From contig SEFT01000003.1 in the NCBI GenBank assembly GCA_004144175.1, forward strand, positions 220,501-284,500: a DNA stretch of 64,000 bases, in the 5' to 3' direction. Of this stretch, positions 57,654 to 64,000 are shown piece after piece (the first letter of the stretch is position 1; the number at the start of each line of letters is the position of its first letter). Both the position numbers and the translations under genes were made by a program. Under the pieces are notes generated by a model. It was not told where the DNA came from. It saw only the letters and a list, made by a program, of their open reading frames with translations, and ran no database searches. This DNA is from Sphingobacteriales bacterium (lineage in GTDB: Bacteria > Bacteroidota > Bacteroidia > Chitinophagales > Chitinophagaceae).

Positions 57654-59120
57654 CTATTTATTTAATGTCTTAAATGCTTCTGTCAGCACTGCCCTGTCAT
57701 CAAAAGGGTGTTTCACTCCTTTTATCTCCTGGTAAGTTTCATGGCCTTTACCGGCTATCAGTATGATGTCCTGCTGGCCGGCTAATGCACATGCTGTCTT
57801 TATTGCCTCTCTTCTGTCTGTTATTCTCAACACTTTTCTCTTATGCGCGCCCGTAAGGCTCGCCTCCATATCATTCAGTATATCTTCAGGGTTTTCGCTT
57901 CTCGGGTTGTCCGATGTCAGTATCACGCGGTCGCTGTGCTCACATACCACTTCTGCCATTACCGGGCGCTTGGTTTTATCACGGTCGCCGCCGCAGCCTA
58001 CTACGGTGATGATCTGCTGGCCATCTACTCTTAGCTGCTTTACGGTAGCCAGTACATTTATCAGCGCATCGGGCGTATGTGCATAGTCCACTATACCCAG
58101 CACCTTGTCGTTCGGCGACATGTATGTTTCAAACCGGCCCGGCGCTCCGTGCAGGTTGCTCAGCACCGACAATACCTTCATTTCATCCTCGCCCAGCAAC
58201 GTTGCTGCGCCGTACACCGCCAGCAGGTTATAGGCATTGAATGTTCCTATCATCCTGAAATGCGCTTCATGTACGCCTACCAGCATCACAAGGCCGGTCA
58301 GGTTGTTCTCCAGTATCTTGCCTTTGATGTTGCCCGGCGCTTTCAGGCTATATGCATTCTTACTTGCATTGGTGTTTTGCAGCATCACCATACCGCGCTT
58401 ATCATCGGCATTGGTCAGTGCAAATGCTTCTTTAGGCAACCCGTCAAAGAATGCTTTCTTTACGCGTATGTATTCGTCAAAGGTTTTATGATAATCTAAG
58501 TGATCGTGCGTGATGTTCGTGAAGATGCCACCGGCGAATTGTATACCGTCTATACGGTGTTGATGCACCGCATGGGAGCTTACTTCCATAAATACATACT
58601 CGCATCCCGCATCCGCCATCTTAGCCAGCAATGCCTGTATCGATACAGCATCAGGCGTGGTATGCGTAGATATTTCTACCGCGTCGTCAATATGGTTCTG
58701 TACGGTCGATATCAATCCTGTTTTGTAACCCAGTGCTTTATATAGCTGGTACAGCAGCGTGGCGGTTGTAGTTTTACCGTTGGTACCCGTAACACCCACT
58801 ATCTTCATTTGCATAGATGGATCGCCATAGAATGAGCTGGCAATAAGGCCTGCTACCGCTGCACTATCTTTTACCTGTATATAGGTTACGCCGTCTTTAC
58901 GATTCTCTGGCAACTGCTCGCATACGACAGCCGATGCTCCCATATCGACAGCTTTATCGATGAACTGGTGCCCATCGACAGCCGTACCGCGTAGCGCGAT
59001 GAACAGCGTACCGGCCGCTACTTTGCGCGAGTCGATACAGATACTGTTTACCTCAACAGCAGTATCGCCCAATACTTGCACCGGTTGTATGCGTATCAAT
59101 ATGTCTTTTAGTACGGCCAT
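57654..59120 (-). CDS. murE: UDP-MurNAc-L-Ala-D-Glu--2,6-diaminopimelate ligase
   Basis: MurE adds the third residue of the peptide stem. The 488-residue protein has [26 protein letters not shown] at the N-terminus, ATP loop [48 protein letters not shown] and the specificity motif [15 protein letters not shown] indicates meso-diaminopimelate rather than lysine, so the wall is of the mDAP type. Its start abuts the ftsI stop codon. murF, which often follows murE, is absent from this cluster. Confidence 0.96.
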
Positions 59121-61208
59121 TTAGCTTAGTTGCAATACAATTGTTTGACCCTTCATTACACGGTTGCCCGGTGCCACCGATTGTTGCTGCACCTTGCCTT
59201 TTCCTTTTACATGCACCTGCAGTCCTTCTTTCTCCAGCAGGTACACGGCATCCTTTAACCCCATACCGTTTACATCAGGCATCATGCCTTTGTATATAGC
59301 TTTAGGTGTTATGTCGATTTTCCTGCTCGAGTCAGAGGTTAGCTGTGCTATATAGTTGTCCTGCCCGATGTTTGCTTTCTGGCCAATGGCATTCAGCAAT
59401 ACCCTGTAGCTACCGGCAGTTGCCTGCTGTGCATACATTCTGCTTTTCGTAGCCTTGGCAATACTATCCAGCGGGCCATCCCAGCCTTTGCCCGATGCGA
59501 ATATCTTATCGGCTATCATCCTGAAAACAGGTGCGGCAATGGTACCACCATAATAGGCACCAGAGCGCGGCTTGGTACGTATCACTACCGCAATGGTATA
59601 GCGTGGCTTTTCTGCCGGGAAATACCCTACGAAAGAACCCTGGTATACGCCATCGGTATATTTGATTCCTTTGTCGGCCACCTGCGCGGTACCGGTCTTA
59701 CCGGCTATATTGTAGAAAGGCCCTTGTATGTGTTTACCGGTTCCGCTCACAGCTACCTCGCGCGTGCAGGCTTGCAGCTGCCTGATGGTGCTGCTGTCAC
59801 CTATTGCTTCTTCTACCACTTCCGGCTTGAAGTTCTTGATAGACCTTCCGTATTCGCGGATGGAGCTGATCAGGTAAGGTCGCATCATCTTACCGTTGTT
59901 GGCAACTGCATTATACACCATAGCGGTATGCAACGGTGTTACCTGTATAGAGTATCCCGTAGCCATCCATGGCAGTGTAGTTGCACTCCATGTTTTGCTT
60001 TTCGGTGTTACCAGTACCGGCCTGCGCTCGCCGGCCAGGTCTATGCCCGTACGCTCATGCAGGTGCAGCTTCTTTATATTATTTATGAACCTGTCCGGCT
60101 CTTTGTAATAGTATTGATATGCCAGCTTAGCCATAGCTGCATTAGAAGAATGTGCAAAGGCATCTCTGATAGACAATACGCCAAGGCCCAGGTGTGAATC
60201 CCTCATGGTACGATTGCCAAAGCGGATAGCTCCACCTTCGCAGTTCACCATATCATTTACGTTGATGTATTTATCATTCAACAATGATATAAGCGTCACG
60301 AGCTTGAATGTAGAACCCGGCTCGGTTGGTATCATTGCATAATTGAAGTCTTCCCAATAGCTGCCATCCTTTTGGCGGCCCAGGTTCACCAGTGCTTTTA
60401 TCTTGCCGGTTTGCACTTCCATTACGATCACCGTACCGTACAGGCACTCGTATTGCTGCAGTACGCTCATCAGCCCGTGCTCTGCTACTTCCTGTATGCC
60501 TACATCCAGAGTAGTTACCAAGTCGCGGCCATTTTGCGGGTCTACTTCCGAGCCCTCTACCGGCGCCCATACACCACCTGTCAGCTTCTGCTCTATACGG
60601 CTGCCGCTTTCACCATTCAATACTGTATCATAGGTAGCTTCCATACCTATGGTTTGGCTGTTCTCACGATACAGTCCGATGGTACGGTAAGCAAGCATAC
60701 CATATGGGTTGATGCGCTTGATCTTAGGGTCTTCAATAAACCCACCCTTTCTTTTTCCTTTATTAAAGATGGGATAAGAGCGCAATGCCTGGTACTGATA
60801 ATAAGGCAGATTCTTCTTTAACAACCAGTAGCGCGACTTTTTATTAAAACCTTGCGTTAGCCTGTTTTTATATGTTTCAGGAGAAGCATCACCAAACAGT
60901 TCAGACATACGGAAAGCCAGACTATCGACTTTCTCATGGAATGTCTCAGGTTTTATTACCGTAAAGTCAACATGCACATCAAACTGCGGAAGTGAAGAAC
61001 AAAGCAGCGCCCCGTCCTCCGTATATATATTACCACGCTCGGCAGGCAGCGTTGTGCTGCGCATGTGCATTTGCTCGGCCAGCCTGCGCAGCTCGGGACC
61101 TTCGCCGCTTTGTATGCTGGCCGCTTTTATAATAACAGCGATGCCCAGCAAGCAAATGCAGACGAATGCCACATATACCCTAAACCGTATGTCCTTTTTT
61201 ACGTTCAA
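59121..61208 (-). CDS. ftsI: Penicillin-binding transpeptidase FtsI/PBP3 with PASTA domain
   Basis: FtsI cross-links septal peptidoglycan. The 695-residue protein has an N-terminal membrane helix (VYVAFVCICLLGIAVII), a dimerisation domain with LPAERGNIYTEDGALL, and the transpeptidase domain with catalytic Ser299 in STFK, the SSN motif (FAHSSNAAMAK) and KTGTAQ. A single PASTA repeat closes the protein (MPDVNGMGLKDAVYLLEKEGLQ, VAPGNRVMKGQTIVLQ). The start is a TTG at 61208 that overlaps the ftsL-like stop codon (TTGA), with no ATG available before the membrane helix. Confidence 0.94.
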   Translation of the reverse strand: MNVKKDIRFRVYVAFVCICLLGIAVIIKAASIQSGEGPELRRLAEQMHMRSTTLPAERGNIYTEDGALLCSSLPQFDVHVDFTVIKPETFHEKVDSLAFRMSELFGDASPETYKNRLTQGFNKKSRYWLLKKNLPYYQYQALRSYPIFNKGKRKGGFIEDPKIKRINPYGMLAYRTIGLYRENSQTIGMEATYDTVLNGESGSRIEQKLTGGVWAPVEGSEVDPQNGRDLVTTLDVGIQEVAEHGLMSVLQQYECLYGTVIVMEVQTGKIKALVNLGRQKDGSYWEDFNYAMIPTEPGSTFKLVTLISLLNDKYINVNDMVNCEGGAIRFGNRTMRDSHLGLGVLSIRDAFAHSSNAAMAKLAYQYYYKEPDRFINNIKKLHLHERTGIDLAGERRPVLVTPKSKTWSATTLPWMATGYSIQVTPLHTAMVYNAVANNGKMMRPYLISSIREYGRSIKNFKPEVVEEAIGDSSTIRQLQACTREVAVSGTGKHIQGPFYNIAGKTGTAQVADKGIKYTDGVYQGSFVGYFPAEKPRYTIAVVIRTKPRSGAYYGGTIAAPVFRMIADKIFASGKGWDGPLDSIAKATKSRMYAQQATAGSYRVLLNAIGQKANIGQDNYIAQLTSDSSRKIDITPKAIYKGMMPDVNGMGLKDAVYLLEKEGLQVHVKGKGKVQQQSVAPGNRVMKGQTIVLQLS

Positions 61209-61588
61209 TTCACTGCCACTTTAGCGGTACTGGTATCTATTTCTATACTGTATGCGGGAAGCATCAATGGCTTCAGCCCGAATGCTGCTGCGTTACGGAT
61301 CACCTGCGATTCCATACGCGTATATAGCAGTTGGGTTTTGATATCCATATATTTCCAGCGCAATTCTTTAATGATCTTGTGCTTCTGGTTCAGCTCGCGC
61401 TGCATCTCTACAGAGCGCTGATTATTGCTGATGTAGAGCACACACAAAAACGCTATAAATGCCAGGTAAGGAACGTTACTTACCACTGCCCTGTAAGACA
61501 ACTTATCCATCAACGCCTTCCAGTCGTTGCGGACGCGCTCCGAAGATTTCGGCTCCTGTGCGCTGTTCGTGTCTTTCTCTCTGCTCAT
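61205..61588 (-). CDS. ftsL: FtsL-like divisome protein
   Basis: The 127-residue protein has a polar cytosolic N-terminus of about 35 residues, one transmembrane helix (VPYLAFIAFLCVLYI) and a periplasmic coiled coil (SVEMQRELNQKHKIIKELRWKYMDIKTQLLYTRMES). This architecture and its location between rsmH and ftsI mark it as the FtsL counterpart, though primary-sequence similarity to E. coli FtsL is low. It should form the FtsQLB complex with FtsQ. The stop overlaps the ftsI TTG start. Confidence 0.85.
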   Translation of the reverse strand: MSREKDTNSAQEPKSSERVRNDWKALMDKLSYRAVVSNVPYLAFIAFLCVLYISNNQRSVEMQRELNQKHKIIKELRWKYMDIKTQLLYTRMESQVIRNAAAFGLKPLMLPAYSIEIDTSTAKVAVN

Positions 61589-61596
61589 TATTGTTT

Positions 61597-62508
61597 CTAT
61601 ATCTTTTCTGCTATGCGCAACCGTGCACTGCGTGCGCGGGGATTATTTTTTATTTCTTCTTCCGTTGGTTCCATCGGCTTGTTATTGACCGCCCTAAGGG
61701 TGCTTTTATTTGTCGATACTCCAAATATGTCTTTCTCTGCTTCTTCCCATCCGCCCTGCTTAATGAACTGCTTCACTATGCGGTCTTCCAGCGAGTGGAA
61801 GGTGATGACACTTAGCCTGCCACCGGGCTTCAGGCTCATTGCTGCCTGTTGCAAAAATTCTTTCAGCGCCCCAAACTCATCGTTCACCTCTATACGTAGT
61901 GCCTGGAACAACTGCGCCAGGTAGCGTTGCGGTAAACCCTTTACTACCGGGGCTATCATACTTTTCAAAGACTCTATCGTCGTCAGCTTTACTTTATTCC
62001 GCTCGGTTACAATATGTTTTGCCAGCTGCCTCGCGTTGCGCACTTCTCCGTATTGCTCAAAGAGCTTGTGCAGCTGCTGCTCGCCATAAGTTTGCAACAC
62101 ATCTGCCGCAGTCATCTCTATCCGTTTGTCCATCCGCATATCCAGCGGGCCGTCGAACCGGATGGAAAAACCGCGCTCTGCCGTATCAAATTGAAAAGAA
62201 CTTACTCCAAGATCTGCCAGTATACCATCCACTTCAGGGTGGCCATGCAGCCGCAGAAAACGTTTTATATACCGGAAGTTTTCAGTTACCGGCACCAGCC
62301 TTTCGTCGTCAGGCTTATTTCTCCAGGCATCCGCGTCGTGGTCGAAAGAAAGCAACTTCCCTTCCCGGCCCAATTGCTCCAGTATCAACCGGCTGTGCCC
62401 ACCGCCACCAAAAGTGGCATCGACATAGACACCATCTTTTTTGATGTCCAGTCCGGCTACTGTTTCCTGTAAAAGAACTGTTGTGTGGTAAAAAGTGGGA
62501 TTACCCAT
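61597..62508 (-). CDS. rsmH: 16S rRNA m4C1402 methyltransferase RsmH
   Basis: RsmH (MraW) methylates N4 of C1402 in the ribosomal P site. The 303-residue protein begins with FYHTTVLLQETVAGLDIKKDGVYVDATFGGGGHS, including the SAM-binding Gly loop, then FDHDADAW, ILADLGVSSFQFD, and ends with LSVITFHSLEDRIVKQFI and NPRARSARLRIAEKI. The length is usual. It follows mraZ after five bases in the dcw operon. Confidence 0.97.
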   Translation of the reverse strand: MGNPTFYHTTVLLQETVAGLDIKKDGVYVDATFGGGGHSRLILEQLGREGKLLSFDHDADAWRNKPDDERLVPVTENFRYIKRFLRLHGHPEVDGILADLGVSSFQFDTAERGFSIRFDGPLDMRMDKRIEMTAADVLQTYGEQQLHKLFEQYGEVRNARQLAKHIVTERNKVKLTTIESLKSMIAPVVKGLPQRYLAQLFQALRIEVNDEFGALKEFLQQAAMSLKPGGRLSVITFHSLEDRIVKQFIKQGGWEEAEKDIFGVSTNKSTLRAVNNKPMEPTEEEIKNNPRARSARLRIAEKI

Positions 62509-62513
62509 TTCAT

Positions 62514-62981
62514 CTAGCTTTCAAATGGGTTAATGAAATCGCCACCGGCCACCTCTGCTGCCAGGCTGCTGAAGTCAGCAGCATGCTTCTGTATATACGC
62601 GTAATACGTATCTTTATCCCACAACTCTACTTTATTGCCCTGCGCAGAAATTATCATGTCTTTTTTAATGTTTGAATACTCCTGCAAAGGCTTAGATAGC
62701 AACAAGCGGCCTGCGCTGTCTGCTTCCACAATAGTTGCTCCGTTTAGGAACAACCGTTTAAATTCCCTGACTTTTGGATTGAAATCGTTGAGCTTGTTGA
62801 TTTTTTCGGATAAGGCATTCCATGTATCCATCGGATACAAAGTGAGGCAGTTCTCAAACCCACGGTTAATAACGAAGCGCTCAGCAGCCCCTTCCGGAAG
62901 CTGCTTGCGAAACCCTGCAGGCAGCAAAAAGCGGCCTTTAGAGTCTATCGCTACTTCATATTCACCGAGAAAACCAGTCAT
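62514..62981 (-). CDS. mraZ: Transcriptional regulator MraZ
   Basis: MraZ is an AbrB/SpoVT-like DNA-binding protein with two tandem copies of the domain, forming ring-shaped oligomers; it represses its own operon in E. coli and acts on the dcw cluster in mycoplasmas. The 155-residue protein shows the two DxxGR motifs: AIDSKGRFLLPAGFRKQ and VEADSAGRLLLSKPL. It is the first gene of the dcw operon. Upstream lies a four-fold 10-bp repeat that overlaps the proposed promoter, consistent with autoregulation. Confidence 0.96.
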   Translation of the reverse strand: MTGFLGEYEVAIDSKGRFLLPAGFRKQLPEGAAERFVINRGFENCLTLYPMDTWNALSEKINKLNDFNPKVREFKRLFLNGATIVEADSAGRLLLSKPLQEYSNIKKDMIISAQGNKVELWDKDTYYAYIQKHAADFSSLAAEVAGGDFINPFES

Positions 62982-62996
62982 GGGTATGGAACCTGT

Positions 62997-63028
62997 AAAA
63001 TGTACTTATAACCACAAAGTAACACAAA
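62997..63028 (-). promoter_or_regulatory. Candidate promoter of the dcw operon (mraZ)
   Basis: On the minus strand TTTG (63028-63025, the third TTTGTG repeat), 20 bases, TACATTTT (63004-62997, last base mismatched). It lies 15 bases before the mraZ ATG. The -33 element is embedded in the repeat array. Confidence 0.5.
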
Positions 63029-63048
63029 CTCCCACAAATTCACACAAA
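63013..63048 (-). promoter_or_regulatory. Four TTTGTG direct repeats at 10-bp period, putative MraZ operator
   Basis: Read toward mraZ: TTTGTGTGAA, TTTGTGGGAG, TTTGTGTTAC, TTTGTGG. The conserved six bases occur at 63048-43, 63038-33, 63028-23 and 63018-13, an exact 10-base spacing. Known MraZ operators are short direct repeats at about one helical turn, e.g. TGGG-type in E. coli and AAAGTG-type in mycoplasmas. Confidence 0.7.
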
Positions 63049-63063
63049 CGGATTTCGACATAT

Positions 63064-63072
63064 TTTTCCACA
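63064..63072 (+). promoter_or_regulatory. Near-match DnaA box
   Basis: TTTTCCACA differs at one base from the DnaA-box consensus TTATCCACA and is oriented opposite to the two perfect boxes downstream. Confidence 0.35.
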
Positions 63073-63144: not shown

Positions 63145-63173
63145 TGTGGATAACCGTAAATTTCTGTGGATAA
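63145..63173 (-). promoter_or_regulatory. Pair of perfect DnaA boxes, 20 bp apart
   Basis: TTATCCACA on the minus strand at 63153-63145 and again at 63173-63165, as part of a 12-base direct repeat TGTGGATAACCG. Both match the high-affinity DnaA consensus. They lie in the divergent region between mraZ and bamD. Confidence 0.55.
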
Positions 63174-63233: not shown

Positions 63234-63266
63234 TTTGTCAATTAGTCTTGTGTTTATGTATTTTTG
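63234..63266 (+). promoter_or_regulatory. Promoter of bamD
   Basis: TTTG (63234-63237), 21 bases, TATTTTTG (63259-63266). The ATG of bamD follows after nine bases. Confidence 0.6.
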
Positions 63267-63275
63267 TCGCCCACT

Positions 63276-64000
63276 ATGCATTTCCGCGTAAAGAATTTAC
63301 TGTTCATATTTCTCAGTATTATACTACTGAGCGCCTGTACCGGCTACGAAAAAGTGCTGAAAAGCAATGACGTAAACTATAAGCTGGTAAAGGGTAATGA
63401 GTTTTACGATAAGAAGCTCTATCCCCAGGCCAACGCCATATACGAGAGCTTGCTGCCTGTAATGAAGAACACCCGTAACTACGAGGCTCTTTATTATAAG
63501 TATGCTTACAGCTTCTATTATATGAAGGACTATCTGTCGGCGTCATATCACTTTAAAAACTTTACCGAGTTCTTCCCTACTAGTAAAGATGCTGAGGAAG
63601 TAGAGTTTATGCACGCACTATGCCTCTACAGGATGTCCCCTAAGGCATCGATGGAGCAGACCTACACGGCAAAGGCGCTGGATGCATTACAGAATTTCAT
63701 CAACACCCATCCTGACTCTAAAAGGCTGGATGAAGCCAACAAGTATGTAGACGAATGCCGTAAGAAGCTGGAGGAAAAACAGGCGCTGGCGGCAGAGCTA
63801 TATTATGACATTGGCCAGTATAGGGCTGCAGGTATTGCCTACCGTGCCCTGATGCGCGACTACCCTGAATCGACCAGCAGCGATAAGTACCAGTATATGA
63901 TCATAAAGTCCTGGTACAACTTTGCCAAGGTGAGCATCGCGGAGAAGCAGGAGGAGCGCTACGCTACCGCCCTCAACGCCTATCAGGAATTAGTAGATAA
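63276..64000 (+). CDS. bamD: Outer membrane protein assembly factor BamD, 3' truncated by the window
   Basis: This gene is missing from the ORF track because it runs off the window end. From the ATG at 63276 the frame is open for 241 codons. It encodes a lipoprotein signal with lipobox LLSAC (MHFRVKNLLFIFLSIILLSAC) followed by TPR-like repeats: LVKGNEFYDKKLYPQANAIYESLL, YEALYYKYAYSFYYMKDYLSASYHFKNFTEFFP, and ALDALQNFINTHPDSKRLDEANKYVDECRKKLEEK. This is the BamD/YfiO architecture; BamD is the essential lipoprotein of the BAM complex that inserts barrels in the outer membrane. It is divergent from mraZ. Confidence 0.88.
   Translation, partial: MHFRVKNLLFIFLSIILLSACTGYEKVLKSNDVNYKLVKGNEFYDKKLYPQANAIYESLLPVMKNTRNYEALYYKYAYSFYYMKDYLSASYHFKNFTEFFPTSKDAEEVEFMHALCLYRMSPKASMEQTYTAKALDALQNFINTHPDSKRLDEANKYVDECRKKLEEKQALAAELYYDIGQYRAAGIAYRALMRDYPESTSSDKYQYMIIKSWYNFAKVSIAEKQEERYATALNAYQELVD

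Follow-up and report, generated by a model that had tools for sequence, protein, structure and literature searches.

GTG repeats at a 10-bp period upstream of mraZ, conserved across Bacteroidota, as the very probable MraZ operator of a Chitinophagaceae-type bacterium

RESULTS

An array of four short direct repeats located immediately upstream of mraZ in the 64-kb window (the whole 64,000-nucleotide stretch of DNA analyzed here) is very probably the MraZ operator of this Chitinophagaceae-type bacterium, through which MraZ would autoregulate its own operon. The assignment to MraZ is made because GTG repeats with a 10-bp period are kept at the same position throughout the phylum. The array consists of four TTTGTG units on the minus strand, spaced exactly 10 bp apart and located 32 to 67 nt before the mraZ ATG (62981), and the coordinates bear out the first-pass annotation on each of these points. 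On the plus strand the units read CACAAA and occupy positions 63013–63018, 63023–63028, 63033–63038, and 63043–63048; the minus strand from 63048 down to 63009 reads TTTGTGTGAA TTTGTGGGAG TTTGTGTTAC TTTGTGGTTA. Box 1, the distal one (63043–63048; TTTGTG, GTG core at 63045–63043), was found in about half of nonredundant family loci. Box 2 (63033–63038; TTTGTGGGA) is the most canonical unit, and its GTGGGA is kept in family relatives. It is followed by box 3 (63023–63028; TTTGTGTTA) and by the proximal box 4 (63013–63018; TTTGTGG). From the GTG onward, the four units read GTGTGA, GTGGGA, GTGTTA, and GTGGTT, with G or T after each GTG.

The array is singular in the genome. The 4.34-Mb assembly contains the TTTGTGN4TTTGTG pattern exactly three times, each time within the mraZ array, and three GTG at 10-bp spacing with A/T flanks are present in the window at this array alone. 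A search of the whole assembly for the three-unit pattern with up to three mismatches revealed no other convincing site, the remaining matches being about as numerous as those of a reversed-pattern control. A wider MraZ regulon was rejected on this ground, since genome sites at this tolerance did not exceed the control. An RNA structure or a riboswitch was also considered and dropped: a search of the segment against Rfam gave no match, and its folding is no better than that of shuffled versions.

The gene behind the array encodes a 155-residue MraZ (62514–62981, minus strand; PF02381, E value of 2.2e-32) with a DSKGR loop and a second repeat, DSAGR. Alignment with E. coli MraZ gave 35% identity, with D-x-K-G-R and D-x-A-G-R invariant, and the protein matches the solved MraZ structures 1n0e, 9qlr, 9sx6, and 9qlg. 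The DNA-contact loop of MraZ is DxKGR (R15 in the E. coli protein), and according to the alignment, the cognate MraZ of the window retains it. Next on the minus strand are rsmH (mraW; 61597–62508; PF01795, E value of 8.9e-95), a gene for a small 127-residue ftsL-like protein taken from the open reading frame list and named by position only (61205–61588), a gene for an ftsI-type penicillin-binding protein with a PASTA domain (59121–61208; PF00905, PF03717, and PF03793), and a murE-like ligase gene from the same list that was recognized from its translation only (57654–59120). As judged from sequence, the order mraZ-rsmH-ftsL-like-ftsI is that of a dcw operon headed by a genuine mraZ. On the other side of the array, a bamD-like lipoprotein gene diverges on the plus strand (63264–63998, to the end of the window, where the contig also stops, with its start unsettled; PF13525, E value of 2.7e-13). 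Elsewhere in the phylum, none of the six genomes sampled from one Bacteroidota family, f42 (G217, G247, G273, G287, G291, and G299, each at least 99% complete), has a PF02381 match, an apparent loss of mraZ across that whole family.

To estimate how widely the repeats are kept, we collected mraZ upstream regions from the same family, from other families of the order, and from the wider class and phylum, and reduced them to 87 nonredundant loci. At least two GTG at exactly 10 bp were present in 82 loci and at least three in 60, compared to about 4 and 0.1 expected by chance. Among the 32 nonredundant loci of the family, 31 had at least two, 30 at least three, and 16 at least four period-10 GTG; for the 55 loci outside the family (other families of the order, class, and phylum), the corresponding numbers were 51, 30, and 6. 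Dinucleotide shuffles gave 2.3 (family) and 1.8 (others) loci with at least two copies and 0.07 and 0.02 with at least three. When other periods were assessed, three copies were found in at most two loci at every period apart from 20, where the increase follows from 20 being a multiple of 10. Five occurrences of three A/T-flanked GTG at 10-bp spacing were found in a 900-kb sample of relatives' DNA, one for each sampled mraZ and none away from mraZ.

With the loci aligned on their last GTG, column counts showed GTG at or near 100% at offsets 0 and −10 and, in the family of the window, at −20 as well. The conserved unit, as read from these sequences, is GTG, usually GTG[G/T], and not TTTGTG. Units of relatives read AAGTG, AAAGTG, or ATGTG; the typical repeat form is GTGGGAAAAAGTGTTATTTTGTG in the family of the window and GTGGTAAAAAGTGGTAAAAAGTGGTA in other families. 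TTT ahead of GTG is well kept across the family only at the last box. TTTGTG was therefore ruled out as the recognition unit, since the letters flanking GTG vary across loci, and the TTT before GTG is, on this alignment, a spacer of the window’s lineage. The first-pass annotation had proposed TTTGTG as the local MraZ box and suggested aligning the mraZ upstream regions of Bacteroidota; in this alignment the 10-bp spacing is kept and GTG is invariant, so the operator is strongly supported by the phylum-wide GTG repeats, but TTTGTG itself varies and is not the conserved unit. Several loci (L012, L014, L019, L023, and others) also have, ~110 to 150 nt before the mraZ start, a palindrome-like CCTTTACWGTAAAGG with TTTCAG after it; as such, the palindrome is absent from the window and the samples of G023 and G087.

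The published promoter consensus of Bacteroidota consists of TAnnTTTG at −7 and TTTG at −33, the latter often weak (PMC7366714 and PMC2483708). The best-conserved −7 candidate in the window is TTACTTTG (63015–63022, minus strand), which overlaps box 4. It fits TAnTTTG, which has one base fewer than the published element, and TAYTTTG is found exactly at the same offset, −6 from the last GTG and overlapping the last box, in 20 of 31 family loci. The TTTG of box 1 is the best-placed −33 candidate; in relatives, a −33 TTTG is poorly kept and lies near −33/−32 only in part of them. The most likely layout, then, would have the box 1 TTTG near −33, TTACTTTG at box 4 as the −7 element, and boxes 2 and 3 between them. 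The distance from the last GTG to the start codon (a median of 35 nt in the family versus 46 to 47 nt in the order and class) differs in the direction expected if the promoter had moved upstream in the family. TTAYTTTG over the last box suggests a family-specific promoter threaded through the repeats.

The first-pass annotation had placed the promoter differently, taking the box 3 TTTG (63028–63025) as the −33 element and TACATTTT (63004–62997, minus strand) as the −7 element, so that MraZ at its operator would occlude the −33 region alone. The 20 nt between the two elements are as it described, and this spacing fits a promoter. Loci beyond the family also speak for such an arrangement: past the last GTG, TAnnTTTG is exact at +16 in four class loci and at +15 in one, and in the order, it is exact at +15 in two loci, with six scoring at least 5 of 6. 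An operator over the −33 region thus appears to be the arrangement elsewhere in the class. In the family of the window, however, the TAnnTTTG position 15 to 16 nt past the last GTG is empty, and TACATTTT lies at +11, an offset at which a score of 5 of 6 or better is reached by only 1 of 31 family loci, that of the window. The element is not conserved even in the nearest relatives (L005–L008; 78 to 84% MraZ identity), where no −7 element was seen at +11 by eye, and TAYTTTG at −6, exact in most family loci, is the better −7 candidate. We therefore consider the box 3 promoter unlikely for the window. Both placements put the operator over the promoter.

Readings that do without MraZ fare much worse. 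The repeats could serve another DNA-binding protein or act as a phased helical or bent promoter element, with the proximity of mraZ incidental, and the A/T-rich, helically phased spacers would fit either role. Against this, across the phylum and in E. coli the repeats are almost invariably found ahead of mraZ, conservation falls on GTG and not on A-tracts, and the array pattern has no second occurrence in the genome; we regard this reading as very improbable. A chance or low-complexity repeat without function, for which local A/T-richness alone speaks, is refuted by the shuffle controls, the controls at other periods, and the phylum-wide conservation, and its probability is negligible.

Matches to the DnaA box lie beside the operator. 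The proximal one, TTTTCCACA (63064–63072, plus strand), is conserved upstream of the operator; the distal one, TTATCCACA (63165–63173, minus strand), is inverted relative to it at a distance of 101 bp, and another copy of the distal box is found at 63145–63153 on the minus strand. These are the three TTWTCCACA sites of the window, all within 110 bp between mraZ and the divergent bamD-like gene; the assembly contains 54 such sites, and no other 1-kb stretch of it has three. A TTWTCCACA falls within the 70 nt that precede the first GTG box in 26 of 31 family loci (0.14 expected). In the same region, a strict DnaA box was present in 7 of 19 loci of the order (0.08 expected) and 3 of 10 of the class (0.0 expected) and in none of the 22 phylum loci. 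Eleven of 31 family loci carry a second, inverted box 101 to 104 bp farther out; in the window, the same-genus G096, G303, and G019, the two boxes are 101 or 102 bp apart. In other Bacteroidia families, the DnaA-like element takes the form TGTGGAAAACTTTT, and in some class members, AAGTTATCAACA; loci with such a variant element just upstream of the GTG array include L125, L132, L136–L138, L152, L153, and others.

Since the only three DnaA-box matches of the window sit within 110 bp of each other, a replication origin was suspected in the mraZ-bamD region. This candidate was rejected on two relatives: G019 has a five-box DnaA cluster 388 kb from mraZ, and in G023, the GC-skew minimum lies near 0.7 Mb and mraZ at 41 kb. 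The G019 cluster (G019:C1:2375680–2375887) comprises five TTATCCACA boxes in ~200 bp, with orientation tending to flip on either side, and is probably the oriC of that genome; it lies far from both mraZ and dnaA (4316 kb). For the boxes beside mraZ, the simplest reading is that DnaA could control dcw transcription.

DISCUSSION

We infer autorepression of the dcw operon from the behavior of MraZ homologs. By analogy with them, a ring-shaped MraZ multimer would bind the GTG units through the DxKGR loops of successive subunits; a ring-shaped oligomer reading repeats is known from the Mollicute and Burkholderia literature (PMC7761207). The four GTG units lie on one face of the helix. Bound MraZ would exclude RNA polymerase because the repeats appear to span the interval from the likely −33 TTTG in box 1 to the likely −7 element, and the result would be negative feedback on mraZ and on the division and cell wall genes behind it. 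In M. genitalium, expression of the dcw genes rises upon mraZ deletion (PMC8475190). MraZ need not be a pure repressor everywhere.

It is possible, and we propose it tentatively, that the mraZ operator is one half of a composite cell-cycle switch, in which DnaA and MraZ together set the level of dcw expression in Chitinophagaceae and perhaps in a wider range of Bacteroidia. In such a switch, DnaA would provide the input from replication initiation and MraZ the feedback from division. The pair of DnaA boxes makes it possible to test for a connection between replication initiation and the expression of division genes, and such connections are little studied in Bacteroidota.

The analysis extends the MraZ rule, by which GTG recurs with a 10-bp period ahead of mraZ, to essentially all of Bacteroidota, with statistics; it suggests an ancient origin for the feedback loop on the division operon and provides a ready search rule. 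No paper on MraZ sites of Bacteroidota was found in open-access text, so an earlier description is possible.

Eraso and colleagues reportedly described, in 2014, an E. coli MraZ box at the mraZ/dcw promoter. In the E. coli K-12 sequence, which we checked ourselves, the region upstream of mraZ contains CAGTGGGAAATTGTGGGGCAAAGTGGGA, that is, three GTGGG with a 10-bp period. The window array shares with this site the GTG core and direct repeats that stand immediately before mraZ with a period of exactly 10 bp, and box 2 has the full GTGGG. It differs in that E. coli has three uniform GTGGG, whereas the window has four units with TG, GG, TT, and GT after the GTG; the full E. coli–type sequence in only one unit of four is a point against the assignment to MraZ. 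The boxes of E. coli and Burkholderia are located downstream of −10 (PMC7761207), whereas those of the window probably lie across the −33 to −7 interval.

Mollicutes have AAAGTG[T/G] repeats (Fisunov et al. 2016, as cited in PMC8475190). The two sites are alike in having GTG followed by G or T, an A/T flank, direct repeats, and one site per genome; they differ in AAAGTG versus TTTGTG and in the full dcw operon, with cell wall genes, behind the window array. The MraZ-binding fragment of Burkholderia cenocepacia, PmraBc, comes close to it with four 7-nt repeats of the repeated-GTG kind separated by 3-nt spacers and found by the GTG rule (PMC7761207); it differs in position relative to −10 and in organism. 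A repeated GTG is stated to be shared by the MraZ sites known from E. coli, B. subtilis, and mycoplasmas (PMC7761207). The idea of a special Bacteroidota box, put forward in the first-pass annotation, is thus not upheld: E. coli carries GTGGG with this same period, and GTG repeats have been described in E. coli, B. subtilis, mycoplasmas, and Burkholderia. The window array is a further example of the known repeated-GTG MraZ box and not a new type of switch.
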